From assembly GCA_035559815.1 (NCBI GenBank), contig DATMAT010000023.1:62001-126000 (forward strand): a DNA stretch of 64,000 nt. Reading direction: 5' to 3'. The translations under genes were made by a program, and so were the position numbers. The notes under the pieces were generated by a model. The model had not been told where the DNA came from. It was given only the letters and a program-made list of their open reading frames with translations, and searched no databases. Shown in pieces: positions 7,490-63,824 of this stretch. Numbering within the stretch: position 1 is the stretch's first letter; each line of letters starts with the position of its first letter. The DNA comes from Thermodesulfobacteriota bacterium (GTDB lineage Bacteria; Desulfobacterota_D; UBA1144; Nemesobacterales; CSP1-2).

Positions 7490-7513
7490 GAAAAGGGGAC
7501 GTGTCCCCTTTTC
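7490..7513. repeat. Palindromic REP-like element with GGGGAC core
   Basis: GAAAAGGGGAC and its exact reverse complement are separated by two bases. AAAAGGGGACG half-copies occur near 4702 and 8669, also outside genes. The pattern resembles elements mobilised by REP-associated tyrosine transposases, but no such transposase lies in the window. Confidence 0.75.
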
Positions 7514-8062
7514 TAGTCCCTAGGAAATTATCCTCTTTTCTTTCTCCAGGCAAGGAATGTAGGGAACGTAGATCTGCGTTCCCTACGAGCTAACTTAATG
7601 CCAAGGCTGGTGGTTTACTATGGGTTATTAAAGATATCAAGTCACAATTTCACACCAATGATATTCCCTTCATAGACTTAGGACTATAGTTTTAAGCTAG
7701 GTTCTCCAGCTAGACTTGTTTCGCCCGCATAATCGAGTCTTGACCTTGTGGGTCGGATGTGAGGGACTGAAAGCTCAGATGGGTGTTACTCCTATGCAAA
7801 TAAAACACTACCTATCGCTTCCTTCACCAATGGCAAATCCTCCCGGAGAGGGGTTTTCTATCTTTACTCCACGGCTCTCAGAAGAATTTGGAATGAACCT
7901 TGCAACCCACCCACCTAGATAGCATAGACAACACACGATACAACCAAAGTTCACCCCCTTAGCGCATCAGGATTCTTGCGTCTCAGGGGAGTATTCAGCC
8001 CCCGCAATAAGTCCAGGCCAGACACACAAGCAGCACAAAAAAACAACTTAAGGAGGCATTCA

Positions 8063-8560
8063 ATGAGAAGGTTTATAGCCATCACAGCTTTAGCTTTAGC
8101 AGTATCAGCGTTGGGAGGGGCAAAGGCGTGGAGCGAGCCCACCTTCTTCAAGTCGTTCGGCTCAGTGGGATTTACCGACACTCAGATAGCCAAGGTAAAC
8201 GTAACTAACTTAAGCAGCATCCAAGCCCCGCCGGGCAAGACGTGTCAGGTGAGCGCGATATTCATGTACTCGGACGGCGCGATATTCTCGTCGGATGGGA
8301 GTCCGATTGGCCTCGGCGATGTATTCAATGGTTCCAGCGTGGACGTAGAGGCGGGAAAGACCGTTTCTTTTGACCTCAACTTGAACGGCATACTCAATGG
8401 CTCCACCCGCGCCCGGATAGTCCCGATGGTGCTTACGCTCGGCCCCTGCAGGAAGTCCCTGAGCCTAAGCCTTGAGGCGGTTGACAGCGCCAGCTCCAAG
8501 ACCCAGTTTGTCCTTTCGCCAGGTGACCCGTATATCCCGGCTCAGCCGTTTCAACCCTAG
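8063..8560 (+). CDS. Secreted protein of unknown function
   Basis: This 165-residue protein starts at the ATG at 8063, chosen because AAGGAGG lies just upstream and because the next residues form a clear signal peptide (MRRF then a hydrophobic ITALALAVSALGG stretch, cleavage probably after KAWS). A longer frame opening at 7976 lacks a ribosome-binding site. The mature part is beta-rich, has two cysteines (in KTCQVSAI and LGPCRKS) that may form a disulphide, and ends in a Pro-rich tail. I do not recognise the family. It stands alone between two repeat-rich gaps. Confidence 0.72.
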   Translation: MRRFIAITALALAVSALGGAKAWSEPTFFKSFGSVGFTDTQIAKVNVTNLSSIQAPPGKTCQVSAIFMYSDGAIFSSDGSPIGLGDVFNGSSVDVEAGKTVSFDLNLNGILNGSTRARIVPMVLTLGPCRKSLSLSLEAVDSASSKTQFVLSPGDPYIPAQPFQP

Positions 8561-8600
8561 CCCCATTTAATGAGTCTAGTATGTAACCCCCTGTCCTTTC

Positions 8601-8622
8601 TCCTCCCCCTTGAGGGGGAGGA
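8601..8622. repeat. TTGA-looped hairpin repeat (copy B)
   Basis: TCCTCCCCC and GGGGGAGGA form a 9-bp perfect stem around TTGA, followed by TTAAGGTGGGGGTG. It lies just downstream of the secreted-protein gene. There is no T-run, so it is not a standard terminator; it is better read as a member of the same repeat family as 7432-7449. Confidence 0.72.
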
Positions 8623-8733
8623 TTAAGGTGGGGGTGAAAACGGGGACCTGGGTTACAGAATCGAAAAAGGGGACGAAACCCTTTTTGGGTTACCAGTTAT
8701 AAGTTGATGGTTTAGTGAACCGCGTCAGCAAAG

Positions 8734-9228
8734 CTATACGCTCTTACCATAGAAGTCTTCAATAAACTTTCTCAAGGACCTCTCAGCATTCTCTCTATGC
8801 GTGCCTGCCCAGTAGATTCTGTTACAGGTATTACAGCGCTTGAATTCGTCCTGGGTTTTCCAAACGTAAGGAGGGACTTTTTCGGTGAGTAACTCCTTTT
8901 TAACCTCTTCCAGTAAAGTATTACATCGAATACACCTGGTAAAGGCACTTTGCAGTGTCCTTAGTTCAAAGACTTGAAGGAACTCGATGAGTTGCTCGTC
9001 CAAATGGTCGCTCCAGATTAAGAGACATTCATTTACTCCTTTCCTCTTTGCTATCGACCTGTCCCTGGTAAGTATTACCCGACCTTCTATAAGGGCCCGC
9101 CGGGTCAGCCAATCGTCATCTATATCTTTATCGTATTCTACGTCTATACCGGCTAGCCTGAGCCACTTGGCCAATTTACCTAGCATCGAGTCGGCGATGA
9201 AACGGGTTTCAGTAGCCTTTCTATTCAT
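8734..9228 (-). CDS. Mut7-C RNase domain protein
   Basis: This 164-residue protein matches the Mut7-C (formerly DUF82) family, a PIN-like nuclease fold fused to a zinc ribbon. The N-terminal part has the conserved acidic motifs (FIADSMLGKLAKWLRLAGIDV and VILTRDR). The C-terminal part carries two CxxC knuckles (CIRCNTLL and CNTCNRIYW), which should bind one zinc ion. RNase activity is proposed for the family from fold and from the MUT-7 protein; the substrate is unknown. It is a single gene flanked by repeat-rich gaps. Confidence 0.85.
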   Translation of the reverse strand: MNRKATETRFIADSMLGKLAKWLRLAGIDVEYDKDIDDDWLTRRALIEGRVILTRDRSIAKRKGVNECLLIWSDHLDEQLIEFLQVFELRTLQSAFTRCIRCNTLLEEVKKELLTEKVPPYVWKTQDEFKRCNTCNRIYWAGTHRENAERSLRKFIEDFYGKSV

Positions 9229-9350
9229 CTAACTTTTAGTTTTTGGCTGGATGCAGAAGTAAAAACAACTAAGTTAATATATTAAATCAAACTTATCCAA
9301 AATAAGAGATTGCTTCGCAGGGATGTGAGGAGAGCAGTAATTCCTGGGGT

Positions 9351-9451
9351 GTCATTGCGAGGAATCCTTCGGCAGGCTCAGGATAAATTCCATGACCAAG
9401 CAAACCCTTGAAAAAAACGAGATTGCTTTGCTATCGCTCGCAATGACATGG
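9351..9451. repeat. Inverted repeat element TGTCATTGCGAGG...CTCGCAATGACA
   Basis: TGTCATTGCGAGG at the left end and CGCTCGCAATGACA at the right end are inverted. The inside contains GAATCCTTCGGCAGGCTCAGGA and GAGATTGCTTTGC. A partial related arm (GAAGCAATCTG, then CGGAATGACACCCGAAGG) continues to about 9560. This fits a non-autonomous miniature repeat. Confidence 0.7.
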
Positions 9452-9576
9452 AAGGTAGGCAGGGGTAAATTCCACGACCGAAGCAATCTGACTCAAAGGT
9501 CATTCTGGAGAGCGGAATCTAAAGAAAGATTTCTCATTTTACTCGGAATGACACCCGAAGGAAAAGCCTGTTTATT

Positions 9577-9640
9577 GTAGGGGTGAACCTTGTGTTCACC
9601 CGTTAAAGAACCAGGACAAATACAGGATTTGTCCCTATAC
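9577..9640. repeat. Interspersed repeat family GTAGGGG (copy 1)
   Basis: The unit begins GTAGGGGTGAACCTTGTG and contains two small hairpins: GTGAAC/GTTCAC, then GGACAAAT/ATTTGTCC. The same two-hairpin architecture with different but self-complementary stems is at 19478-19535, so stem sequences have changed in a compensated way. Confidence 0.75.
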
Positions 9641-9666
9641 GATTGCGTGATCAAAAGCATGGTATC

Positions 9667-9694
9667 GTAGAGACGCATAGTAATGCGTCTCTAC
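9667..9694. repeat. 12-bp-arm palindrome
   Basis: GTAGAGACGCAT and ATGCGTCTCTAC flank a 4-base AGTA loop; the arms match perfectly. No T-run follows and the nearest gene end is over 200 bases away. It is probably another interspersed palindromic repeat. Confidence 0.75.
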
Positions 9695-44575: not shown

Positions 44576-44650
<75 letters not shown>

Positions 44651-44677: not shown

Positions 44678-45772
44678 TCATTTTCCAAAATTTTCATTGC
44701 TACGGAAATTGCTACGGATTTGATTGAAATTCGCCAAAATTTCTACTGCTTCTTTAACACTTTCCTCTGGATGGGAATACCTCTCGGTAACTTTCACTGT
44801 TGAATGTCCTAATAACTTTGTAATGGCATGAAGAGGAATTCTAGATTCTACTAGACGAGTTGCGGCTGTATGTCTTAGGTCGTGAAATCTTAGATTCTCT
44901 ATGCTAGCTTTCTTACAAGCTGTCTTGAAAGAGTGCTTGAGCCAGTTTAAATGGCTGTCTATTCCTTTAGGGCTTGGAAACACAAATTCACTTCCTCCTG
45001 ATGTCAGTTTACGTTCTATTAAAATAGTTCTCACAACTGGATTGACCGGAATCTTCCTTGTCTTTTTGCTCTTGGTGTTAGTTTGGGGCAGGGTAATAAT
45101 GTTATGTTCAAAATCTATCCACTCCCATTTGAGCCCCAGTATCTCACCTTGGCGCATCCCGGTATTTAAAGCAATCCGAATAACGTCATGTAGATATGTA
45201 GGACTAGTTTTAAGCAACCGTTCTTCTTCCTCAGGGGTTAGGATTCTCTCTACTAGGTTGTGCACCTCCAACATTCCTGATAGGGTTACCGGATTCCTCC
45301 CAAAGAATTTACCTTTTCTATAGGCAAGGTTAAAAAGATTTTTCACTACCGATAACTCACGATTTACTGTAGCCGGTTTAGCATCCTGGTTTAACCGGAG
45401 CTTTTTATAAGCGTCTATATCATCAGAACTGATTTCATTTAGCTTCCTACCATTAAAAAGTTTATTAAAGTGGTCTAACGCTTGTCTAGTTCTCCTAAAT
45501 GAACGGTTTTGTTTTACGTCTCTGATATGCTCAATGTACTCTTGAGTAAATTCCGATAGCGTAGGAATGCGGTTAGTTATCATATCCAATTCCCCTAACC
45601 GTACCTGACGTTTCTTTTCTTCAAGCCTAACTTGAGCGGCAGCTTTTGTTATCATCCCCACTTTGCCTACGGATTCCCATTTTTCCTTACCGTTCCCCAA
45701 AGAATAACGAATGTACCAATAAGCAGTCTTCGAACCGTCTTTGTTCTTTATCCAGCGTTTAAATACTCCCAT
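44678..45772 (-). CDS. int: Tyrosine recombinase (integrase of the element)
   Basis: This 364-residue integrase has an N-terminal SAM-like core-binding domain (about 70-155) and a C-terminal catalytic domain with the Arg of ALNTGMRQGEILGLKW, the HxxR of RFHDLRHTAATRLV, the later His in LLGHSTVKVTERYSHP and the tyrosine in that RYSHP motif. The N-terminal KDGSKTAYWYIRYSL fits an arm-binding domain. Its 3' end lies 28 bases from tRNA-Thr, as in elements that integrate at tRNA 3' ends. Confidence 0.95.
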   Translation of the reverse strand: MGVFKRWIKNKDGSKTAYWYIRYSLGNGKEKWESVGKVGMITKAAAQVRLEEKKRQVRLGELDMITNRIPTLSEFTQEYIEHIRDVKQNRSFRRTRQALDHFNKLFNGRKLNEISSDDIDAYKKLRLNQDAKPATVNRELSVVKNLFNLAYRKGKFFGRNPVTLSGMLEVHNLVERILTPEEEERLLKTSPTYLHDVIRIALNTGMRQGEILGLKWEWIDFEHNIITLPQTNTKSKKTRKIPVNPVVRTILIERKLTSGGSEFVFPSPKGIDSHLNWLKHSFKTACKKASIENLRFHDLRHTAATRLVESRIPLHAITKLLGHSTVKVTERYSHPEESVKEAVEILANFNQIRSNFRSNENFGK

Positions 45773-45883: not shown

Positions 45884-46627
45884 TCATACATTTTTAATCT
45901 CAATCACCTTTACTATCCGACCTACTATTCTCAATTCCTCTCTCTCAATTACTTCTAATGGATATTCCTTTTCTTTGTATACCGGGTTATCCGCCTTTAG
46001 AATAAGCTTGTTATACTCTACGAAAACTCTTTTCACTGTAGCACCGATGTATGGTATCTCGATAGCGTATAATTTCCCGTCAATAATCTTTTTTTGATTC
46101 ATATCAACAAGTACAACAGAGCCATCAGAAATAGTAGGTGCCATGCTGTCTCCTATTACCTTGATTCCAAGTACATGTTCCTGAATCCAATCAACTTTGA
46201 TCGGGACATAATCTATTGGTTCCAGAGACCTATGGTTTCTTTCAGCGTTCCCAGCATCCACTTCGTTGTAAACAGGAAAAAGCACGTATTCACCCTTGCT
46301 ATATTGTTCGCCTGGGTCCCAAACACCTTTGAATTTCCATGGAAGTAAATCGGTTTCCTTAGGCACCGATAATTTTGTTCCTACTTGCTTTCTTGGTTCC
46401 TCAAAAAACATTTCCCCTTCACCCTTCCGCAGCCACATAGGATTGACACCATAGGTTTGCTCTATGAGCTTAAAAAGCCTTTCAGTTGGCGGCACTTTCT
46501 CATTCTCTATTTCTGAATAATAACTCTGACTAAATCCTATTTCTTGAGCGAAATCCTTTTGAGATAACCCCAAGTGTGCTCTAAGAACCTTTAATCTATC
46601 GTGTAACGATTTAGTTTCCTTTATCAA
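45884..46627 (-). CDS. XRE-family S24 repressor (CI/LexA-like)
   Basis: This 247-residue repressor has an N-terminal Cro/CI helix-turn-helix (LRAHLGLSQKDFAQEIGFSQSYYSEIENEKVPP) and a C-terminal S24 peptidase domain with the nucleophile Ser in IGDSMAPTISDG and the Lys in GATVKRVFVE, so RecA-stimulated self-cleavage is likely. It is divergent from the excisionase-like gene, and inverted TGAC-N-ATAAT-type sites lie between them. It probably keeps the element silent until DNA damage, as CI/SetR-type repressors do. Confidence 0.92.
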   Translation of the reverse strand: MIKETKSLHDRLKVLRAHLGLSQKDFAQEIGFSQSYYSEIENEKVPPTERLFKLIEQTYGVNPMWLRKGEGEMFFEEPRKQVGTKLSVPKETDLLPWKFKGVWDPGEQYSKGEYVLFPVYNEVDAGNAERNHRSLEPIDYVPIKVDWIQEHVLGIKVIGDSMAPTISDGSVVLVDMNQKKIIDGKLYAIEIPYIGATVKRVFVEYNKLILKADNPVYKEKEYPLEVIEREELRIVGRIVKVIEIKNV

Positions 46628-46767: not shown

Positions 46768-46974
46768 ATGGAAGTTATTAAGATAGGACCAGAGAAAAAA
46801 GAACTCTTGACCCTTGGAGAACTTGCCGAGCGGTTTTCCATCCCGCTTTGGACTCTTCGTACCTATGCTTCTCAGCGTAAGTTTCCCATCGTTAAGCTGG
46901 GCAGAAGAATCTACGTAAATCCGAATGAGTTCAGGCAGTGGCTAGATCAATTCAGAGTCAAGCCAATAGGATGA
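46768..46974 (+). CDS. Excisionase-like helix-turn-helix protein
   Basis: This 68-residue protein is a winged-helix MerR/AlpA-type HTH (LLTLGELAERFSIPLWTLRTYASQRKFPIVKLGRRIYVNPNEFRQWL), the fold shared by excisionases. It is divergent from the repressor and first in the rightward operon, so it may be the recombination directionality factor or an early activator. A ribosome-binding site AGGAGTGG precedes the ATG. It overlaps the next small gene by ATGA. Confidence 0.8.
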   Translation: MEVIKIGPEKKELLTLGELAERFSIPLWTLRTYASQRKFPIVKLGRRIYVNPNEFRQWLDQFRVKPIG

Positions 46975-47090
46975 TAAAAGATAGATTCGCACAGAATGCC
47001 CTCGCAGTTTTCATTGATGCCCTGTGGTCGCTATTTGTCCTTAGAAAAGGTTTGATTTTAGGAGTTGCGGGTATTGGAGTGGTGATATGA
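46971..47090 (+). CDS. Tiny coupled membrane peptide (39 aa)
   Basis: A 39-codon gene lies between the excisionase-like and ParB-like genes. Its ATG overlaps the upstream stop (ATGA, 46971-46974) and its stop overlaps the downstream ATG (ATGA, 47087-47090), so it would be translated by coupling on both sides. The peptide has a charged start (MIKDRFAQN) and one hydrophobic segment (about residues 10-39) with an internal Arg-Lys. The protein is not recognised. The exact double overlap argues against chance. Confidence 0.6.
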   Translation: MIKDRFAQNALAVFIDALWSLFVLRKGLILGVAGIGVVI

Positions 47091-49441
47091 AAGAAGAAAT
47101 AAAGAAGATAATCCAAAGAGGTTATTTCAAATGCACTCTCAGCAAGTCTGATGTCGGTGTTAAGAGGTGCATTGAGTTTCAGGACGAAAAGTTTTGTTCA
47201 TGCGAGCTTGGAGAAGCAATTAAACGGGAGCGGGAAGCAGTAGAAGAAAGATTTGACTTCGTCGGAAAAAGAAAACCAAGAACCCCAAAGAATGCAAAGC
47301 CTGTAGAGATTAACCCTAGAAGCATCGTCTTTATTCCCACTGACAAACCCAGGTCTTTACCTGAGAAGATTATCGTATACGACACTCCTTATGGCTACTT
47401 TTCATACGACAAGAGAGCGGTAGATACCAAAAAAGGAAAAATCCAGGCGGTCCTTGTGGCTGTAAGGAGCTTTGAAAAAAGCCAAAAATTCTTGAAGGAG
47501 ATAAATGCTATGGAATATAGAGAAATTCCAATTAGAGAAATCCTACCCTGCCACTTTCAAAAGAGGCGAAATATTTTTAAAGACCTCGATAGCCTTGTCG
47601 ACGATATAAAGCGAAACGGCGTGATTGAACCTATCATTGTCCGTCCAATGAAACTAGGAAATCAAAAGTGGGAGTTGATATGCGGAGAAAGAAGGCTGGA
47701 AGCTGCTAAGAAGGCCGGACTCAAACTAATCCCCGCTCGAATTGTAGAAGCAGACAATATCCAGGCAAGGCTTATGCATCTTAGCGAGAATCTCCACAGA
47801 AAGGACCTCACCCCGACAGAACGCACAGAGGCTATAGCGGACTTCCTGGATACCATTCTTCGAGCCGATCCTGAAGTGGGAAAAGAATACAAAGGGTTAG
47901 GGAAGGATTATGTGGAAAGGGTAAAACGGGTTTTGTCTACACTAGATAACGTGAGGAGAAGTAAAGAACGTGGATACAAAGTTAATCCAGATTTAGAGAA
48001 GACGTCCCACAAATTTGTGGGACGAGTTGAAAAGGCTTTTTCCCAACTTTCCCGTCCTATTGATTGGCGGAGCTTTTATGTACATGACCTGCCTCTTATT
48101 ACCGAAGTAGACCCGGATGTGCAAGAACTGGCAATAGAATCCAAGCTCTCCGGGTCTCAAATTAAGGCTCTCGATAAAGTAAAAAAGGAAGCTCCTCAAA
48201 TCTATGAAGAAATCAAAGGAAAAATTAAAGAATCTCCTAAGGAACTAAGCGCGGAACAGCTCCGTGCTGTAGTCGAAAAGGAATTGGCCAAGAAGGAATT
48301 CCCTAAACATTCTCTAACTAATCTTGAGCCTGAGGAATTTGCCCTTGTAAAACGAGAGCTGGGTGAGAAGTGGAAAGATCTGAGTAGTGAGCAGTCTGAG
48401 ACACTGCTCAGATCCTCAGGTGATAAAGAGACCTTTAAAGCCTCACTCGGTTCCATAAAAGAAGGAATCGAAGAACAAGAAGAATATGGGGTTTTTGAAT
48501 ACGAACCGGAGAAGACCAGGCAAAGAAAACCGACCTTTGATCCTGTCGAGGACGTTAGGAAGAAACTAGATGAGATAGAAGGAGAAATGAAAAATGCTCT
48601 TTCTCTATTCAGGAAGGATGAAGATGACCTCGAAGGATTCATGAATTCCCTAGGAAAGCTAGTTCTAACCGCTACACGCATTAAAAAATCGATAGAAGAA
48701 GAGGCTTATGAGTCTCTGGCAAAGATTTCATCCAACGGACATGGGGAAAAGGTGAGGGAATACCCCTGGGCAAAAAAGATTCTTGAGGCACGGGAAAAGG
48801 GCCCGGACCCACGGGTGAAACACATTAAGGATGCTTACACAAGACTCTATATCCAAAACTTCAAGGAAAATCCTACCGAGCCGGACGGCAAGATTGGAAG
48901 CCTCTCAAAACAGCTTCTTGCTAAGACAGAAGAGGAAGAAATCATAGAGAGCCTTCAATTTTATTTATCTCATGAGAAAAAGGAAGTTCCACAAAAAGAC
49001 CGAAGAATTTACGAAAAGCCCAGGACATTCGGCAAATTCTTTAGCTGCTTTGCCCAGATACGCGAGCACATGAGAACTCTAAAGAGTGAACCGCCTGAAG
49101 TAGGAGAACTCACCCGCTGGTATGTGGATGAGGTTTGGGAAGGAAATCCACCAGAAGATAGCGCTTTAGTCAGGGAATGCTGGAGGGAGTTACTGCCCAA
49201 AGCAGAAAAGAAATCCAAAAGCCCTATAGAGTTTCTCAAAGAGGTTTATATATGGTGGAAAAACGTAAATGAAACCGAAATCGAGCAAGAAAAGAGGTGG
49301 ATTACTCGAGGAGATGCAACAAGAGATATCAAAGGTTTTCACCGGAAGTTCCATGAAATATTATCTACAAAGCAGGGATCAACCAAATGGAGCTTTAAGA
49401 ATGCCGACTACACCTTACCCGAAGAGTGGAAAAAAGAATGA
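47087..49441 (+). CDS. Large ParB-domain protein
   Basis: This 784-residue protein has a Cys-rich start (Cys16, 28, 37, 39), a ParB/Srx N-terminal nuclease-like domain at about 143-240 with GERRLEAAKKAGLKLIP (GERR at 200-203) and ENLHRKDLTPTERTEAI, then a possible KorB/HTH region, and a long charged, partly coiled C-terminal half ending in a Trp-rich domain. It is far longer than classical ParB (about 300 residues); no ParA is nearby. A DnaC-like gene follows 21 bases later, so a replication or partition role for the excised element is plausible. Its coding sequence contains two notable inverted repeats (48003-48024 and 48377-48414). Confidence 0.8.
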   Translation: MKEEIKKIIQRGYFKCTLSKSDVGVKRCIEFQDEKFCSCELGEAIKREREAVEERFDFVGKRKPRTPKNAKPVEINPRSIVFIPTDKPRSLPEKIIVYDTPYGYFSYDKRAVDTKKGKIQAVLVAVRSFEKSQKFLKEINAMEYREIPIREILPCHFQKRRNIFKDLDSLVDDIKRNGVIEPIIVRPMKLGNQKWELICGERRLEAAKKAGLKLIPARIVEADNIQARLMHLSENLHRKDLTPTERTEAIADFLDTILRADPEVGKEYKGLGKDYVERVKRVLSTLDNVRRSKERGYKVNPDLEKTSHKFVGRVEKAFSQLSRPIDWRSFYVHDLPLITEVDPDVQELAIESKLSGSQIKALDKVKKEAPQIYEEIKGKIKESPKELSAEQLRAVVEKELAKKEFPKHSLTNLEPEEFALVKRELGEKWKDLSSEQSETLLRSSGDKETFKASLGSIKEGIEEQEEYGVFEYEPEKTRQRKPTFDPVEDVRKKLDEIEGEMKNALSLFRKDEDDLEGFMNSLGKLVLTATRIKKSIEEEAYESLAKISSNGHGEKVREYPWAKKILEAREKGPDPRVKHIKDAYTRLYIQNFKENPTEPDGKIGSLSKQLLAKTEEEEIIESLQFYLSHEKKEVPQKDRRIYEKPRTFGKFFSCFAQIREHMRTLKSEPPEVGELTRWYVDEVWEGNPPEDSALVRECWRELLPKAEKKSKSPIEFLKEVYIWWKNVNETEIEQEKRWITRGDATRDIKGFHRKFHEILSTKQGSTKWSFKNADYTLPEEWKKE
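48003..48024. repeat. Perfect 22-bp palindrome inside the ParB-like gene
   Basis: CGTCCCACAAA is followed directly by its exact reverse complement, with no spacer. Size and symmetry resemble partition or operator sites such as parS, and its place inside a parB-like gene fits; that role is inference. Confidence 0.75.
48377..48414. repeat. Imperfect 13-bp inverted repeat inside the ParB-like gene
   Basis: GATCTGAGTAGTG and CACTGCTCAGATC pair with one mismatch over a 12-base loop. It encodes part of the linker (LSSEQSETLLRSS). Confidence 0.6.
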
Positions 49442-49462: not shown

Positions 49463-50323
49463 ATGGAGCTTAGAGAGAGCATTGAGCAGATTGTTCACAA
49501 GTTTGCAAATGAAAAAACCGAACTGCTTGGAGAAGAGCGGGTTTGTCCCGATCATGGAGCGCACGAATCATACAACCTGACCTATTTAGGAAAAACTGTT
49601 ACGGTTAATTCCTGCCCCAAGTGTATTGACGGAAGAATCAGCAGTTGGAAAGAGAGGGTTCAAGGAAAATTTATAGAAACAGCAGAAAAGCTAATTCAAA
49701 AGACCGTTCCCAAAAGGTTCTGGACTGCAAGCATAGAATCATTCCAAGCAACGATACCCCATATGGAAGAGATCAAAACAAAGGTCTTGGAGTTTATATC
49801 CAATCCTGAAGGGAAAAGCCTGGTAATGATAGGAAAACCGGGTACAGGAAAGACTCACCTGGGATACGCAATATACAAGTATTTTTTGATTTGGAGTCTC
49901 GCTGAAAATTCACAAAACCCCTCACAAAAGCCTATTTTTACTACAGCTCTTGATATTATTCGGAGTTTCAAGGAGTGCTGGAGGCAGTATCCGGTGGATG
50001 AAGATCAATACCGTCCTCTTTTTATCTCGGAAAGAGAAGCCCTTATCCATTATGGCAATGCGTCCATGCTCATTATGGATGAGATCGGAGTCCAGTTCCA
50101 ATCCGATACGGAACGGCTCATTCTTACAGAGATAATAAATTACCGCTACGAAAGGATGCTTCCCATAGTGGTTATATCGAATCTTAAGCCTTCGCAACTG
50201 ACGGCCGTTCTGGGAGAGAGGGTTATAGACCGATTAAAGGAGGGAGAATTTCTCATATTCGACTGGGATAGCTGGAGAGGGAAAGGAAATTCGTATCACC
50301 CAAATTCTAAGGGTAAGGATTAG
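49463..50323 (+). CDS. DnaC-like AAA+ ATPase (helicase loader family)
   Basis: This 286-residue protein has an N-terminal zinc-binding region (Cys28, His31, Cys51, Cys54) and an AAA+ module with Walker A GKPGTGKTH (124-132), Walker B LIMDE (203-207), sensor 1 SN (239-240) and the DnaC/IstB-type GERVIDRL (251-258). This fits helicase loaders such as DnaC/DnaI and IS21 IstB. No transposase is nearby, and the ParB-like gene precedes it, so helicase loading for element replication is favoured. Confidence 0.85.
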   Translation: MELRESIEQIVHKFANEKTELLGEERVCPDHGAHESYNLTYLGKTVTVNSCPKCIDGRISSWKERVQGKFIETAEKLIQKTVPKRFWTASIESFQATIPHMEEIKTKVLEFISNPEGKSLVMIGKPGTGKTHLGYAIYKYFLIWSLAENSQNPSQKPIFTTALDIIRSFKECWRQYPVDEDQYRPLFISEREALIHYGNASMLIMDEIGVQFQSDTERLILTEIINYRYERMLPIVVISNLKPSQLTAVLGERVIDRLKEGEFLIFDWDSWRGKGNSYHPNSKGKD

Positions 50324-56807: not shown

Positions 56808-57158
56808 ATGATGAGAAGGTACGTAGCTCAATACTCTAAATTTATACCGGCTCTCTATGGCAGGACAAAGAGAGATAAAGCGCTCATTGCTCTCTTTGCT
56901 CTTATTTCGATGATTGTCCTGGCGGGCAACAGTTATGCGGGAACAACCGGGACAGAATTCCAGGGCGCATATGCTCTAATATCAGGCTGGACAACGGGTT
57001 TCCTGGGGAGAATAATAGCGCTTGCAACGTTCCTGGTCGGCCTTGCCGGCACGATAATACGTCAGAATCTTTATCCGGTTGTAGTTGGGCTTGCCGTAGC
57101 CCTAACGGTGGCGCTTGGTCCCTCGATCATAGAGGCGATAGCTACTGCAACATTCTAG
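56808..57158 (+). CDS. traA: TraA-like conjugative pilin
   Basis: This 116-residue protein has a long basic leader (MMRRYVAQYSKFIPALYGRTKRD), a hydrophobic segment ending SYAG at about residue 45 that is a likely signal-peptidase site, and a mature part of about 70 residues with two hydrophobic helices (GRIIALATFLVGLAGTI and VVVGLAVALTVALGPSIIEAI). This is the architecture of F-type TraA prepilins. AGGAGGTG lies four bases from the ATG. It precedes traL as in F-type operons. Confidence 0.8.
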   Translation: MMRRYVAQYSKFIPALYGRTKRDKALIALFALISMIVLAGNSYAGTTGTEFQGAYALISGWTTGFLGRIIALATFLVGLAGTIIRQNLYPVVVGLAVALTVALGPSIIEAIATATF

Positions 57159-57169
57159 TTCCGAGCCGG

Positions 57170-57463
57170 ATGAGGATAAAGAAGGAGGTTTTAACAGTGT
57201 TTGAAGGGAAAATTAAAGTATTGGAAATAGAAAAGATCGACCATCCAAAGATAGCAGGGATTACCACAATATATCTCCAGGACATAGGCAAGATTTCGGG
57301 GATAAAAATAGTTCATATAAACGGTGAAGTAAAATGCGAGCCGCCTAACCGCAGTTTTGTGGATAATGGAATAAGAAAATGGCAAAACGTTTTCTCTTTT
57401 GAAAGGGACCTCTGGGATAAAATCCAGGAAAAAATAGTTAAGGAGTGGCAGAAATGCAGGTAA
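57170..57463 (+). CDS. SpoVG-like small protein in the tra operon
   Basis: This 97-residue protein has a beta-rich core (KIKVLEIEKIDHPKIAGITTIYLQDIGKISGIKIVHING) followed by a charged helix (LWDKIQEKIVKEWQK), similar in layout to SpoVG-type nucleic-acid-binding proteins, which share I...I..D.......I.. patterning and an IxxxI helix at the end. The match is only by eye. It lies between traA and traL, where F-type operons normally have nothing. Its end overlaps traL by ten bases. Confidence 0.55.
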   Translation: MRIKKEVLTVFEGKIKVLEIEKIDHPKIAGITTIYLQDIGKISGIKIVHINGEVKCEPPNRSFVDNGIRKWQNVFSFERDLWDKIQEKIVKEWQKCR

Positions 57464-57720
57464 GGATTCCCAGGTATATAGACGATCTTCCCCAAATCCT
57501 CTGGTGGGAGATTGACGAAGTTTGCCTGTTTGCGGGACTTTTTGGAATTGGAATCATTCTGGGATCAACGGCAATTGGGCTTGTTTCAGGGATTTCAGCT
57601 ACCTATCTTCTCCAAAAGCTAAAAGCAGGCCGGGGAGCGGAGTATCTAATGCACTGGGGATATTGGCATGGATTAATCGGGCTCAAGCCTGAAAGCTACC
57701 ATGAGGAGTTTATAGAATAG
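57454..57720 (+). CDS. traL: TraL conjugation protein
   Basis: From the ATG at 57454 (AGGAG eight bases upstream), 88 residues open RIPRYIDDLPQILWWEIDEV and carry two hydrophobic segments (LFAGLFGIGIILG, TAIGLVSGISATYLL), then the short LKAGRGAEYLMHWGYWHGL end. This is the TraL pattern of the F-type inner-membrane pilus assembly complex. traE follows after a repeat. Confidence 0.88.
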   Translation: MQVRIPRYIDDLPQILWWEIDEVCLFAGLFGIGIILGSTAIGLVSGISATYLLQKLKAGRGAEYLMHWGYWHGLIGLKPESYHEEFIE

Positions 57721-57731
57721 GAGGTAAATTA

Positions 57732-57805
57732 GCCACGAAGACACCAAGACACCAAGAGAAACCAAAATTTAAATTTCTTTCTTAGTGCCTTCGTGCCTTA
57801 GTGGC
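57732..57805. repeat. Imperfect inverted repeat between traL and traE
   Basis: GCCACGAAGACACCAAGA (57732 on) and a right arm ending TTAGTGGC (57805) pair over about 28 bases with several mismatches, each arm built of three 10-base GNNACNAAG units. The centre is an AT palindrome. It is of the GCCACGAAG type also seen near 20390. Confidence 0.75.
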
Positions 57806-57816
57806 AAAAAATAAAA

Positions 57817-58380
57817 ATGAGAATAAGGGTATTCAGAGAAAGATGGGAAAACCTGGAAAAAGAAAACGGACTGCTCCGGTTCTTCATACTTTTACTAATT
57901 ATCGGAATTCTAACTGAAGGGGTTTTTATGCTTATTTCTTTAAGGAAGACCACAGTCAATATTTATGTGCCTGAGTATCTGGAAAAGGATTTTTCCGTAA
58001 AAAACGGGTTGCCTTCTGAGGATTATTTCGAGCAGTGGGCGCTATCTCTCATTCCCTACATCGCTTCTTTCACTCCGGAAAGCGTTGACTTCAACATAAG
58101 GACGTTTCTCTCATACGTTCATCCCAATAACTACGGTTTGATCGAAAATAAACTTATAAGTCTAGGGGATGAGATAAAAAGTGTTGGAATTTCTCAGGCG
58201 TTCTTCTCCCAGGAGGTTTCCACATCCGGCAAAGAGGTAAGCGTCATGGGAAGACAGGTGCGGTTTGTGGGGAAAACTCCGACAAGCGATGAGATAGTAC
58301 GCTATATCTTTTCCTTCAAAGTTGAAGGGGGAAAACCCTTGATAGAGAACATTAATGTCACTACGGATTCCGGAAGGTGA
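57817..58380 (+). CDS. traE: TraE conjugation protein
   Basis: This 187-residue inner-membrane protein has one N-terminal transmembrane helix (LLRFFILLLIIGILTEGVFML) and a periplasmic domain with TVNIYVPEYLEKDFSV and FTPESVDFNIRTFLSYVHP, matching the TraE/VirB5-like F-type assembly factor. Order traL-traE-traK is conserved. Confidence 0.9.
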   Translation: MRIRVFRERWENLEKENGLLRFFILLLIIGILTEGVFMLISLRKTTVNIYVPEYLEKDFSVKNGLPSEDYFEQWALSLIPYIASFTPESVDFNIRTFLSYVHPNNYGLIENKLISLGDEIKSVGISQAFFSQEVSTSGKEVSVMGRQVRFVGKTPTSDEIVRYIFSFKVEGGKPLIENINVTTDSGR

Positions 58381-58387
58381 AAGCAAG

Positions 58388-59086
58388 ATGAGAATGAATA
58401 GTATTAAGCTAGTAGTTATGGTTGTGAGTATTTTTCTCTTAGCAAATAAAGTTTGGGCTACAACCGTAATCGAAGCAATCGACGAAGATAAAAGCATATT
58501 CGTAACAGTGTCAAGCCGGGACATAAACCGTATAGAAATGCCCGAGCCTGTAATTGAGGCTCTATCATCCAAGGCTATAGATGTAAAAATCAAGGAGCGA
58601 AATATATTTGTAAAAGTTCCCGATTCACATCCTGCCGAGCTTTTTATCTCTACAAAGAAAAAAAACATTTCTCTAATCCTGGTTCCCAAAGACATTCCTG
58701 CTGAAACAATCGTGGTAAGAGATACAAAAGATGGCCTTTCTACCTCTAGCTGGAATTTCGTAGAAGATAATTCCTATGAAGGGACAATAAAAAAGATCAT
58801 GCTCTTCCTCTTTAAGAGAAGCGCCCCTTCCGGATATATAGCCAGTTATCCAAAAGATGAAGGCTGGATGCTAAACGGAGTTAGTTTAAGAAAGGCTTAT
58901 GTGATTGAGGGACCCGTATTTCAAGGGGAGTTGTATGAAATCAAAAATATAAGCTCAGTCGAAGTAAATCTGAGCGAAGAGATGTTCTACCAAAAAGGAA
59001 TCATGGCAATAAGCATTGATAAATATGATCTTGCCACAGGTGAAACCTGCAAATTATTCATCGTAAAGAGGTCGCGACATGATTAA
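58388..59086 (+). CDS. traK: TraK conjugation protein (outer-core secretin-like)
   Basis: From the ATG at 58388 there are 232 residues with a signal peptide (KLVVMVVSIFLLANKVWA) and a beta-rich body (VTVSSRDINRIEMP, VKIKERNIFVKVPDSHPAELFIS, LILVPKDIPAETIVV) like TraK/VirB9-type outer-core proteins. Another ATG eleven codons earlier overlaps traE. TraK contacts TraB and TraV. Confidence 0.88.
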   Translation: MRMNSIKLVVMVVSIFLLANKVWATTVIEAIDEDKSIFVTVSSRDINRIEMPEPVIEALSSKAIDVKIKERNIFVKVPDSHPAELFISTKKKNISLILVPKDIPAETIVVRDTKDGLSTSSWNFVEDNSYEGTIKKIMLFLFKRSAPSGYIASYPKDEGWMLNGVSLRKAYVIEGPVFQGELYEIKNISSVEVNLSEEMFYQKGIMAISIDKYDLATGETCKLFIVKRSRHD

Positions 59087-60509
59087 TCGGAGATTAAAAG
59101 GAAGACGGGGAAAGGTCCTTGGTATAGGTCTTATACTGCTGGGGACTATTGTAGTTATAGCACTTCTCACATCGGATGAAGAAGAAGGGGCGCGTAAAAG
59201 AGAGCAAGAAAAGACCAGGGTTTTAAAAACGGCTGATTTAGAGAAGGAAAAATGGCGTGCCTCTGCCGAGAAGGAAATAGACAAACTGAGAAACTCCCAA
59301 AAAGAACTCCTTAAGGAAATCAAATCCCTTAAAGAGAAGCTCTCGGCAAAAGAAGAAAAAGAAAGCTCCCCACCGCTGCCGCCTTTATCGCCTGGAAAGA
59401 ATGTATTTTCTCCGCCTCCCCCACCACCACCGCCAAGCTTTGAAAATGGAAAAGGAACGCTTGAAAAGATTCCCTCTCAAATCCGGGTATTTTCTCCTGA
59501 GACTGCATCCATAGTTTCAGGCCAGGCTCAAATCAGTCCCCAAAAAGAAGAGTCTACTCTAGGCAAAGGAAATTGGATACCATCCGGAAGCTTTGTGAAG
59601 GGAATACTGCTTAGTGGTCTCGATGCGCCTACAGGGGTTCAGGCAAGGGGTAACCCCTATCCGGTGCTGATTCGTTTATCAGAGCCGGCTAACCTTCCAA
59701 ATCTAAGAAGACTCGATGTAAAAGAGTGTTTTGCCACAGGCGGCGGATACGGTGATTTAGCCTCAGAACGGGCATACATAAGACTTGAGACTATCTCCTG
59801 TGTTCTTAAGTCCGGGAAGGTAATCGATACCCAGGTAAAAGGGTACGTTGCGGGAGAGGACGGAAAAGTAGGGATTCGCGGAAGGCTTATTTCCAAGCAG
59901 GGTCAGTTTTTATCCCGAGCACTTCTTGCCGGGTTTGCCAGCGGAATAGGACAGGCGTTTAGCTCCTTTAGTACCGTTACCAGTATCGGCGCCGGGGGCA
60001 CGGTAACGGTAGGACCCGATGAATTAAAGGATATCGGCCTTGTGGCGGCGGGAGGAGGCGTCTCAAGGGCTGCTGAGAAACTGGCAGATTACTACCTAAA
60101 ACTTGCGGATGAGGTCTTTCCGGTCGTGGAAATAGATTCGGGCAGGACTGTAGACGTCGTGGTGCTTGAAGGAAAAGAGCTAACTCCCAGAGGGAGGCTT
60201 ATTTCTGGCGAGGCCAGAGACTCAATTCCAGAAGATACCACTACTTCTTTCTATGAATCGGATGAAAAAACGGAGCCTTCGGAGATAGATATATCCGCTT
60301 TCCCCAATCTTCCCCAGGAAAATTTGCCTGATTCTATCGGTAGTGACGTGAAACCAAAAAAACTGGGTGTTTTTCAGGAAGGAAACATTACTAAAAAACC
60401 GGATGAGGAAAAATCAAAAGAGAGGAGTTTTCTTAAGGAAGATAAACAAGGAAAAAGTAGGAACCTGGAGTTAGAAATTCTAAAAAAGCTAGAAGAAGGG
60501 AAAAGATGA
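59079..60509 (+). CDS. traB: TraB conjugation protein (VirB10-like)
   Basis: TraB spans both membranes in the F-type core complex. The 476 residues have one transmembrane helix (about 14-31), a coiled-coil (38-90), a Pro-rich linker with a run of PPPPPPPP (about 95-120), then the VirB10-type barrel: WIPSGSFVKGILLSGLDAPTG, ECFATGGGYGDLASERAYIRLE and GIRGRLISKQG. A charged tail follows the core, longer than usual. The gene overlaps traK by eight bases. Confidence 0.93.
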   Translation: MINRRLKGRRGKVLGIGLILLGTIVVIALLTSDEEEGARKREQEKTRVLKTADLEKEKWRASAEKEIDKLRNSQKELLKEIKSLKEKLSAKEEKESSPPLPPLSPGKNVFSPPPPPPPPSFENGKGTLEKIPSQIRVFSPETASIVSGQAQISPQKEESTLGKGNWIPSGSFVKGILLSGLDAPTGVQARGNPYPVLIRLSEPANLPNLRRLDVKECFATGGGYGDLASERAYIRLETISCVLKSGKVIDTQVKGYVAGEDGKVGIRGRLISKQGQFLSRALLAGFASGIGQAFSSFSTVTSIGAGGTVTVGPDELKDIGLVAAGGGVSRAAEKLADYYLKLADEVFPVVEIDSGRTVDVVVLEGKELTPRGRLISGEARDSIPEDTTTSFYESDEKTEPSEIDISAFPNLPQENLPDSIGSDVKPKKLGVFQEGNITKKPDEEKSKERSFLKEDKQGKSRNLELEILKKLEEGKR

Positions 60510-61048
60510 AAACTAAATTAGCATTTTTTATCACTTTAGCTCTTTCAATTTTAATTTTTCAGGCCTGTGGAGGACCAAAATACGGGTGTTCCTACGGTGA
60601 GGGGGTATCTTGCGAAAGTGTATCCACCGTATATAAAGATTCGCTTTCCGGTGAATTAGAGAAGAAAAAGGAAGAAGAGAGAAATCTGAGAGAACTGGAA
60701 AAGGAAAAAAGACCGAGAAAATTAGGGACTGGTGAAATTTCATATGTAAAAACTAAAGGAAAAAACTGGAGCAGCTCACAAGCTTCAAGCTCGTCAGCCA
60801 GTACCGCCATTAGCTTTAATCCTGGTCTGAAATCTGATGAACCCAATGTAGTTCCCCTTCGCACTCCACCGGATGTGCTGAGGGTCTGGGTCGCTCCCTG
60901 GGAAGATAAAAACGGAGCGCTCCACGGAGGAAACTACATCTATCTCGTCGTGAATTCCGGAAGATGGATTTTTGGAAATAAAGAAGTTGAAGAGTCAGGA
61001 AATATTATACCTTTGGAGAGTGTAACCGATGGGAATACAGCAGAATAA
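60506..61048 (+). CDS. traV: TraV lipoprotein
   Basis: TraV is the outer-membrane lipoprotein of the F-type core (VirB7-like). The 180 residues have a lipobox FQAC (Cys21) followed by the TraV cysteine pattern (CGGPKYGCSYGEGVSCESV), a charged coiled stretch and a C-terminal LRVWVAPWEDKNGALHGGNYIYLVV segment typical of TraV. It overlaps traB by four bases and traC by twenty. Confidence 0.92.
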   Translation: MKTKLAFFITLALSILIFQACGGPKYGCSYGEGVSCESVSTVYKDSLSGELEKKKEEERNLRELEKEKRPRKLGTGEISYVKTKGKNWSSSQASSSSASTAISFNPGLKSDEPNVVPLRTPPDVLRVWVAPWEDKNGALHGGNYIYLVVNSGRWIFGNKEVEESGNIIPLESVTDGNTAE

Positions 61049-63479
61049 GCTTAAGGAGGGAATTAAGCGTGAACCCCTTTCGGACTGGCTTCCCTATATA
61101 GCCTACGAAGAGGGTCTTTATCTACTCATGGACGGATCTCTTGGATTCATATTTGAGATAAACCCGCTTCTTGAAGCAGGCTCCGATACTCACAAGATTA
61201 TTTCAAGACTCTACAACTCAGAGTTTTTTCCCACAAATTCAACTATCCAGTGGCATGTTTTTGCATCTGAACGGATTTTTCCGCAGCTCGAGATCTGGAA
61301 GATGAGCCGTTCGGCCAATTTTAAAAGATTTACCGAGGAAAGAGCAAAGCTTTATACGGATAACATTAAGGATATTTTGGGCCATCCGGTAAGAGATTTC
61401 AGATTCCTGGTCTCTATAAAAATCCCCCATCCTTTGAAAAAGAAAGGGTTTCTTCATGAAGAGGACATAGACCTTAGCCGCTGGGATGGATACACAGAAG
61501 AGGTGAACAAAATCAGAGAATCTGTTCAGGGAATACTTGAGAGCGCATTTCTTCTACCCCGTGACATTCCGCCTGAGTCTCTAATTCCTCTTTTAGTGGA
61601 GCTTTTTAATCCCGGGCATCCTGAAGACAGTCTTTCATGGGACAGGTATGAGAAGAATGAAGAAATCAGGCATCAGATCATAGATTATGAAACAAAGATA
61701 AGAATCACAGAAAGAGGGATTTTCCTTAATCATTACGAGCTAAAGAGCCTTAGCCCAAGAATCTATCCGGAAGTCTGGGATATGTACAGCTTCCACGAGC
61801 TCTTCGGAGATTCAATTCAATCGATGAGGCAAATTCCTTCTTATTTTCTCCTTAGCGCAAACTTTATAATGTTGGATAAGAACAAATCAAAGTCGGCTCT
61901 TACAGCAAAAGCATCTATTGTGAAGCATCAGTCGTTTGGGTTTATTACACATTTTATTCCTCGCCTGAGACGGAAGGCCGAGAACTTTGATATTATCATG
62001 CAGGAGTTCGAAAACGGGGAAACGGCGATAAAAGGATATTTGAACCTCTTTGTTCGTGGAAAAACCCCGAAAGAAACAGAGAAATTAAAAGAAGTAGCAG
62101 GAGGAATCTGGAGGGCTAAAAACTTTGAAATCCAGGAAGACCCTTACATTATGCTCCCACTTCTACTCCAGAGCCTGCCGCTGGGGCTTGAGCCTTTCCA
62201 GGACAAGCTTATCAAAAGAGCAAAAACAATACCGAGCTCGGCGGGAGCCGCTCTTACCCCGGTAGCTATCGACTGGAAGGGATCGAGAGGAGGACCGCTT
62301 ATTTTTATCTCAAGACGTGGACAGATTATGCAGGTGGACTTCTTTAAATCCTCTTCGAATTACAACTGTGTGATGTTTGCCCAGAGCGGGTCGGGAAAAT
62401 CCTTTCTTACCTCCGATATTATCTCCGGCTACCTTGCAGAAGGTGCCCAGGTATTTGTTGTGGATATCGGGCGGTCATACGAGAAGCTCTGTAAGTATAT
62501 AGGAGGGGATTTCATAGTATTTAGTGAGGATTCTAATATCTCGCTTAACCCCTTCTCGAACGTTGTAAATATAAAAGAGGACATGGAGCTTCTAAAACCC
62601 CTCCTTTGCCAGATGGCCAGTCCCTCAAAAGTCCTCTCAGACCTTGAAAAATCCTATGTGGAGAAAGCAATAAAGGAATCGTGGAATGAAAAGGGACAAG
62701 AGGCTGAAATTGATGATGTGGTGAGAAGGCTCGAAGCCATGGAAGACCCTTATCACCGGGCAAAAGACCTGGCCAGGATGCTCTATCCGTTCTCAGAGCA
62801 TGGACAATACGGAAGGTTCTTTACCGGAAAAGCAAGCATATCATTCGGAAACTCCCTTACCCTCATAGAGCTCGAAGAGCTAAAGGGAAAGCCCGAGCTC
62901 CAGAGCGCAATGCTTCTACTTATCATCTATCACATATCGCGGGCGATGTATCTCGGAGAAAGAGGAAGAAAGAAGCTTGCGGTGATAGATGAGGCCTGGG
63001 ACCTGCTGGGAGGGAAAATGGCCGCAGAATTTATCTCTCATGGTTACCGGAGGGCAAGAAAATACGGAGGGAGCTTTATTTCAATCACTCAGAGTCTTCT
63101 CGATTTCTATAGAGTGGGTTCGGTAGGGGAAGCTATAACAGAGAATTCCGCCTGGATGCTGATGCTGAGACAAAAGGGGGAAAGTCTTGAGGAGATAAAG
63201 AAGGGACGAAAGCTAATGCTTTCATCATATTTCTTGAATCTAGTCGAGAGTCTTACCACAGTTCCGGGGAGATATTCGGAGGTTTTCATCTACAATAGCG
63301 AAAGGGGAATGGGCCTCGGAAGATTTGTAGTAGACCCTTTCTCATACTGGCTCTACACAACCAAGCCGGATGAGGTTGCGCTTCTTAACAGATTGATCCG
63401 GGATGGATTAAGACTCGAGGAAGCAATTGGGAAATGTATTGAGGCCACAACGGATGAAAGGCAAAAGAGACAAGGGTAA
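61029..63479 (+). CDS. traC: TraC conjugation ATPase (VirB4-like)
   Basis: TraC energises pilus assembly. The 816 residues open SDWLPYIAYEEGLYLLMDGSLGFIFEINPL and contain Walker A FAQSGSGKSF at about residues 450-459 and Walker B KLAVIDEAWDLLGGKMAAEF near 650. FITITQS-like FISITQSLLDFY follows. Length is right for TraC. The start overlaps traV by 20 bases. Confidence 0.95.
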   Translation: MGIQQNKLKEGIKREPLSDWLPYIAYEEGLYLLMDGSLGFIFEINPLLEAGSDTHKIISRLYNSEFFPTNSTIQWHVFASERIFPQLEIWKMSRSANFKRFTEERAKLYTDNIKDILGHPVRDFRFLVSIKIPHPLKKKGFLHEEDIDLSRWDGYTEEVNKIRESVQGILESAFLLPRDIPPESLIPLLVELFNPGHPEDSLSWDRYEKNEEIRHQIIDYETKIRITERGIFLNHYELKSLSPRIYPEVWDMYSFHELFGDSIQSMRQIPSYFLLSANFIMLDKNKSKSALTAKASIVKHQSFGFITHFIPRLRRKAENFDIIMQEFENGETAIKGYLNLFVRGKTPKETEKLKEVAGGIWRAKNFEIQEDPYIMLPLLLQSLPLGLEPFQDKLIKRAKTIPSSAGAALTPVAIDWKGSRGGPLIFISRRGQIMQVDFFKSSSNYNCVMFAQSGSGKSFLTSDIISGYLAEGAQVFVVDIGRSYEKLCKYIGGDFIVFSEDSNISLNPFSNVVNIKEDMELLKPLLCQMASPSKVLSDLEKSYVEKAIKESWNEKGQEAEIDDVVRRLEAMEDPYHRAKDLARMLYPFSEHGQYGRFFTGKASISFGNSLTLIELEELKGKPELQSAMLLLIIYHISRAMYLGERGRKKLAVIDEAWDLLGGKMAAEFISHGYRRARKYGGSFISITQSLLDFYRVGSVGEAITENSAWMLMLRQKGESLEEIKKGRKLMLSSYFLNLVESLTTVPGRYSEVFIYNSERGMGLGRFVVDPFSYWLYTTKPDEVALLNRLIRDGLRLEEAIGKCIEATTDERQKRQG

Positions 63480-63497
63480 ATATGCTGAGGTAAGACC

Positions 63498-63824
63498 ATG
63501 TTAAAAAGTATTCTTTCGGGATTCTTAGGAGCAGTCATTGGGGGTGCTGTTGTTGCGGGATGGCTCTACTTTTTCTCACCAGAGCTCTATATCCTCGACA
63601 TAAAGGGAATTATTGACTCTGAAAGAGAGAAAATCGTGAAAGAGATGCAAGATGAGACTATTTCTCAGGAAGAAGCAGGAAAGGAAATAAATGCCTTCTT
63701 CGATGAATTTAATAGCGTACTGAAAGAGTACAGAAAAAAGGGACAGTTAATTATGGTTAAAGATGCCGTTCTTTCAGGGGGGAAAGACATCAGCGATGAA
63801 TTTAAAGGAAAGCTTGAAGAATGA
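63498..63824 (+). CDS. trbI: TrbI-like conjugation protein
   Basis: This 108-residue protein has one N-terminal transmembrane helix (ILSGFLGAVIGGAVVAGWLYFF) and a periplasmic helical part starting YILDIKGIIDSEREKIVKEM. Size, topology, ILDIKGI segment and position after traC match F-type TrbI, thought to act in pilus retraction. It overlaps the next gene by 29 bases. Confidence 0.7.
   Translation: MLKSILSGFLGAVIGGAVVAGWLYFFSPELYILDIKGIIDSEREKIVKEMQDETISQEEAGKEINAFFDEFNSVLKEYRKKGQLIMVKDAVLSGGKDISDEFKGKLEE

Follow-up and report, generated by a model that had tools for sequence, protein, structure and literature searches.

What is a perfect palindrome doing in the middle of a protein-coding gene? 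The question is raised by a locus in the 64,000-nt stretch of DNA analysed here (hereafter the window), for which a sequence-only reading had reported a 22-bp palindrome without spacer inside a ParB-like gene, noted the ParB GERR motif in the encoded protein, and proposed a candidate parS. The three observations were borne out: positions 48003-48024 read CGTCCCACAAATTTGTGGGACG, identical to its own reverse complement, and fall within a 784-aa open reading frame (47087-49441, + strand) whose product matches Pfam ParB_N with an E-value of 1.8e-18 and has the GERR motif in common with plasmid ParBs. From comparison of sequences, we consider it highly probable that the palindrome is the specific binding (loading) site of the ParB-like protein encoded by the same gene, i.e., a candidate site of the parS type. 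The gene and its parts are as follows (in motifs, a slash marks the centre of a palindrome).

47087..49441, + strand: ParB-like fusion protein, 784 aa; N-terminal ~140 aa, ParB CTPase-fold domain, linker and HTH, then ~390 aa without known domain
47516..47797, + strand: residues 144-237, ParB_N domain; shares the conserved GERR and ENLHR motifs of plasmid ParBs
48003..48024, no strand: perfect 22-bp palindrome, candidate ParB loading site; centre between codons K309 and F310 (TSHK/FVGR)
48077..48088, + strand: residues 331-334, the YVHD tetrad of the recognition helix; H333 is at the aligned position that varies with palindrome base -4, here C at 48010

Two ParB-type parts of the protein, the CTPase-fold domain and the linker-HTH, are alignable, and the codons around the palindrome's centre are TCC CAC AAA/TTT GTG GGA. 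AlphaFold2 without an alignment gave a low-confidence model (mean pLDDT 38). No full-length homologue of the 784-aa fusion was found among the genomes searched: residues 305-784 had no close homologues in 57 genomes of the phylum, no relative of the whole protein was present in IMG/VR, and one partial homologue (G001) covers the first 77 residues, after which its contig ends. A search of 386 relatives returned two weak partial matches besides the window; one led to a Meiothermus plasmid gene (L059), and the other (G330) is in an unrelated locus.

The palindrome had also been called very unlikely by chance. For the window this stood: it is the only perfect palindrome there with an arm of at least 8, and arms of at least 11 arose at 0.02 per 64 kb (2 in 100 simulations) in Markov-1 sequences of equal composition. 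Genome-wide, the claim was overstated, as composition alone predicts roughly one such palindrome per 4-Mb genome; since about one is expected in a genome of this size, chance by itself is not decisive against the palindrome. Its place in the gene is more telling. When codons were shuffled within the gene with the protein held fixed, an arm of at least 11 appeared anywhere in the gene in 0.115% of 20,000 shuffles and at the K309/F310 boundary in 0.05% of 2,000, a probability of 0.0005 given the protein. Considering also that the palindrome sits at a codon boundary homologous to that of related genes and obeys their helix-base rule (both described below), a chance origin is very improbable.

The same palindrome was sought elsewhere in the element that carries the gene: no further copy exists, the next best match (15/22) equals chance expectation, and the window holds no second site with up to 3 mismatches. 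Its core, CCCACAAATTTGTGGG, occurs once in the 3.97-Mb genome, and the exact core was not found in IMG/VR. The palindrome is absent from the genome's matches to canonical parS (TGTTTCACGTGAAACA-like) with up to 2 mismatches; one exact canonical parS lies elsewhere in the host genome (C63:46318). Eight other palindromes with an arm of at least 9 were counted in 464 kb of this genome; by inspection, these are 5 members of two repeat families, 1 canonical chromosomal parS, and 2 singletons.

Some further repeats of this genome were recorded. The best partial match to the palindrome (15/22), an exact single half-site TTTGTGGGACG, lies near the element's right end (C23:214361-214382), such matches being no more numerous than chance. 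Repeated long palindromes, in families around GGAACGCATATATGCGTTCC and GTAG(A/G)GACGCA, occur at 7490-9694 of the window and in L045, L048, L052, L054, and L056, and are probably a dispersed host-genome repeat. Within the ParB-like gene itself, 48377-48414 is an imperfect inverted repeat, GATCTGAGTAGTG / CACTGCTCAGATC, with a 12-nt spacer.

The sequence-only reading had proposed looking for the palindrome in homologous genes, and here the result was favourable, since distant homologues mostly hold a palindrome at the homologous codon boundary. The ParB core of the window protein resembles Thermus plasmid ParBs (31-33% identity) and a Meiothermus plasmid gene, and appears to be part of a subfamily that occurs on plasmids of Thermus, Meiothermus, and cyanobacteria; its kinship to the subfamily is distant, with at most 34% identity, a very long branch, and a profile E-value of 3e-32 obtained with the window itself as a row of that profile. 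In these relatives the site lies in the linker between the CTPase-fold part and the HTH, at homologous codons. A first set of 66 genes was made up mostly of Thermus/Meiothermus relatives plus 15 plasmid loci hand-picked for spread, with two duplicates dropped; an arm of at least 8 fell exactly at the aligned boundary in 48 of these 66 distinct genes. The final set of 67 was drawn from 77 by removing 4 duplicates and 6 genes without a recognisable helix, and 51 of the 67 distinct genes have a perfect palindrome with an arm of 8-14 within the linker stretch of parB. Two other loci, L207 and L210, had no usable frame. The centre is nearly always 19-23 codons before the helix, with one exception at 38. 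The window gene fits with an arm of 11 at the aligned linker boundary before the HTH; the boundary residues are usually N/V in the relatives and K309/F310 in the window. One relative (L201) carries TCCCACAACGTTGTGGGA, which differs from the window core in the centre only.

A perfect site is missing from 16 of the 67 genes. Near-palindromes, with 9-10 of 11 pairs, were seen in nine genes read singly, one of which (from the HB8 plasmid) is outside the 67, while no embedded palindrome was found in the Deinococcus-like L097, L205, L206, L208, and L209, nor in L094, L102, and L216. As a control, the same stretch was scanned in viral ParB-like genes (76 of 80 scannable), where two had an arm of 8, both at a different position. 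A second control comprised 17 further matches, none with an arm of at least 7; 16 of them look like canonical ParBs (0/16), and the remaining one (L236) was scanned in an unrelated frame.

Several of the genes surveyed have peculiarities of their own. Two parB fragments, L211 (G360:C56:2500-3600) and L212 (G437:C24:35900-37000), retain a perfect embedded palindrome, like second copies of the site, and L108 (Nostoc edaphicum pNe_1) has an enlarged linker with tandem site copies, THN/VMG at residues 184 and 211 plus another. Among the viral genes, L136 and L115 have palindromes (TATTTCACGTGAAATA and ATCACGCGCGTGAT) 60-61 codons past ENxxR, in the same codon phase and a similar peptide context. 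Five others (L134, L158, L176, L135, and L174) have palindromes of the form GTGCAG(A/G)CG(T/C)CTGCAC at a CT-containing motif (GAD/VCT or SAG/ACT), perhaps another embedded site; an arm of at least 8 was present in 2 of 9 matches to the CTxC pattern, outside which L134, L158, and L176 fall.

Codons -1/+1, -2/+2, and -3/+3 change jointly as reverse complements, even where both amino acids are altered: CAT with ATG (H..M), CAC with GTG (H..V), CAA with TTG (Q..L), CGC with GCG (R..A), CCC with GGG (P..G), and AAT with ATT (N..I). Further residue pairs related in this way are R..T, R..S, and D..I, and the centres are N/V, D/V, S/A, and K/F. Owing to this covariation of the flanking codons, the palindrome is kept in the DNA when amino acids change. 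The boundary was aligned in 58 of the 67 genes, and in these 509 of 522 bases were complementary, versus a mean of 363 and a maximum of 386 after right halves were exchanged between genes. With the protein and codon use of each gene held as they are, the expected number of genes reaching an arm of 8 is 1.1 of 51, a figure computed on the 51 selected genes only.

Variation of the site also follows the protein. The recognition helix has the pattern SF-x0-x1-x2-x3-LPL, and the residue at x2 goes with palindrome base -4: N with T, H with C, and A, V, S, or T with A. This rule holds in 47/47 genes and 19/19 distinct combinations, and was matched in 0 of 200,000 permutations; in addition, R at x1 accompanies G at -5 (5/5). 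Apart from nine later genes, the genes that obey the rule are also those from which it was derived; its S and T assignments had been read from the tabulated data before the held-out genes were fetched. In eight genes fetched after the rule was noted, the five perfect palindromes and both near-palindromes fit, and one gene has no site; one of the eight, L213, was read by eye (SY motif) and is included in the final count, which, with one further gene taken from a genome (L223), stands at 51/51. On a tree built with linker and helix excluded, each trait changes 15 times. All branches together give 13 independent pairs, and starred branches alone give 5; these 5 all point in the same direction, five being too few for a sign test to reach significance. 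Judged by position in the motif, our alignment places x2 opposite N178 of Caulobacter ParB, which contacts parS in the co-crystal and is described as conserved between ParB and Noc (PMC7383237).

The window follows the rule, with H333 at x2 and C at base -4, an agreement which for the window alone is one base with about 1 chance in 4. The window departs from its relatives in its centre (AA/TT vs AC/GT elsewhere) and in its helix, YVHD, in which no R follows the H. Since centre and helix differ and the branch is long, we rely for the window on the combination of position, perfect symmetry, helix, and -4 base.

The surroundings of the gene indicate in what context such a site would act. The ParB-like gene is part of an integrated conjugative element of ~114 kb, with the following features.

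44576..44650, + strand: tRNA-Thr, left attachment site; imperfect copy of its 3' end at C23:221086-221132, ~114.5 kb away
44678..45772, - strand: tyrosine integrase, left end of element
45884..46627, - strand: XRE-HTH and S24 peptidase repressor
46768..46974, + strand: excisionase-like HTH protein
49463..50323, + strand: DnaC-like helicase loader, directly 3' of the ParB-like gene
56808..63824, + strand: F-type conjugation genes (TraL, TraE, TraK, TrbI-like/TraB, TraV, TraC, TrbI_Ftype)

With a repressor gene nearby, the palindrome might be the operator of another regulator (the S24 repressor), or else an RNA hairpin, as it folds in RNA form into a 9-pair stem (z -2.5). A similar site between repressor and excisionase was looked for and none was found; moreover, covariation with the recognition helix of ParB is not expected of either a hairpin or a foreign operator, and we find this explanation scarcely credible.

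No ParA-type ATPase lies between the element's ends, the genome's seven AAA_31 matches all falling outside; by our interpretation these include the host ParA on contig C11, which also encodes the host's own ParB, and a MinD-like protein just beyond the element's left end. Near the right end, there is a gene for a ParM-like actin (L043:11668-12651, equal to C23:217668-218651 of the same genome; ALP_N E 8e-14, PDB ParM chains E 3e-10). It overlaps an 86-aa gene that, judging by this arrangement, could encode the DNA-binding partner of the actin, so that the two may form a type II partition pair. A partition centromere proper, in which the complex of protein and palindrome segregates the excised element by means of a borrowed motor (host ParA on C11 or the element's ParM-like actin), finds some support in these potential motors, and in most plasmid-derived relatives an annotated ParA gene adjoins parB. 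However, the element lacks ParA, and if the small overlapping gene encodes the usual partner of the ParM-like actin, the latter would not need ParB. With no ParA in the element and a ParM-like gene at hand, we do not put segregation by this ParB first, and we judge it unlikely. The candidate parS of the sequence-only reading is thus supported as a parS-type site by its homologous position, its covarying halves, and the tracking of base -4 by the helix; as a partition centromere it fared less well, in an element without ParA and with a ParM-like gene of its own.

In phages, the origin is found within the initiator gene, and the palindrome could by the same token be the origin site of the element, with the ParB-like protein as initiator. 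The gene is immediately upstream of the DnaC-like loader, and in genome G260 a relative of the loader follows what we interpret as an initiator-like gene. However, no iterons or repeated binding sites were found adjoining the palindrome, and relatives of the ParB core adjoin ParA, not DnaC; an origin at this site is accordingly quite doubtful.

The reading that we favour is a loading site for the encoded protein. The palindrome would sit in the linker codons before the HTH, where related plasmid parB genes hold theirs, and a dimer would read one half-site with each of its recognition helices, H333 reading the C:G pair at -4/+4. The GERR and ENxxR motifs have a role in nucleotide binding. Their conservation here suggests that loading as a clamp would involve nucleotide, as in ParB. 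What probably follows can be modelled on ParB, Noc, and KorB: closure of the protein into a nucleotide-gated clamp that slides over the neighbouring xis-parB-dnaC region. Its role is probably in control or in replication/transfer of the element rather than in ParA-driven partition, and may consist in early-operon regulation, replication with the DnaC-like loader, or transfer; a ParB that activates conjugation genes has been described for NAH7 (PMC12421886). For the subfamily as a whole, we tentatively suggest, as a possibility somewhat short of even, that the parB gene is a self-contained, reprogrammable centromere cassette, with the site in linker codons and one or two co-evolving recognition-helix residues, such that a new specificity could arise and travel within one gene. 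In the present conjugative element, this cassette would work without ParA, fused to a new domain and beside a helicase loader, as a clamp that serves the element's control or replication.

These results yield parS candidates and a testable residue-to-base rule for many plasmids, as well as for an element whose orphan ParB is a fusion protein. They also provide an unusually clear example of a DNA site dictating protein sequence, the flanking amino acids changing as reverse-complement codons, and suggest how plasmids could switch incompatibility specificity within one gene.

That parS can lie inside parB is already known from Thermus pTT27 and Streptomyces SCP2; in the open-licence literature, we found no published report of a codon-locked, co-evolving site across phyla. 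In Caulobacter ParB/parS and Noc/NBS, as in the present case, the recognition helix reads a palindrome, with N178 contacting parS; there, however, residue 178 is conserved without switching, and a gene-embedded site is not among the features described in the available text (Jalal et al., 2020, PMC7383237). Orphan proteins of the ParB-CTPase fold are likewise known without ParA, with lineage-specific domain fusions and on mobile elements, although embedded sites and the present fusion do not figure in the accessible part of that survey (Kaljevic et al., 2025, PMC12704722). ParT-parS of Streptomyces SCP2 is similar in having the binding site inside the binding protein's own gene, an 18-bp inverted repeat within the coding sequence of a ParB-like protein, identified by ChIP-seq and BLI (2025, PMC12260392). 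It differs in that ParT is CTP-independent and accompanied by ParA, and the available account does not describe a family-wide codon position or covariation (PMC12260392). Also comparable is ParABSm of the Thermus thermophilus HB27 megaplasmid, whose ParBm is a plasmid ParB of the same subfamily as the window's ParB core. Its parS was reported inside parBm, with EMSA (Li et al., 2015, PMC4409726; also PMC10085754), and ParBm is described as forming foci in E. coli without any other parS (PMC4409726). This system differs from the window in having ParA and, according to the published description, a site, AAGGACGCGTCCTT, at other codons (PMC4409726). That site is absent from the near-identical gene L091, and at the linker position HB27 has a near-palindrome, TTAGGGACAAC/GTTGTTCCTAC, with 9 of 11 pairs, which obeys the -4 rule. 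Our comparison leads us to ask if the main site of the Thermus megaplasmid is indeed the published one.
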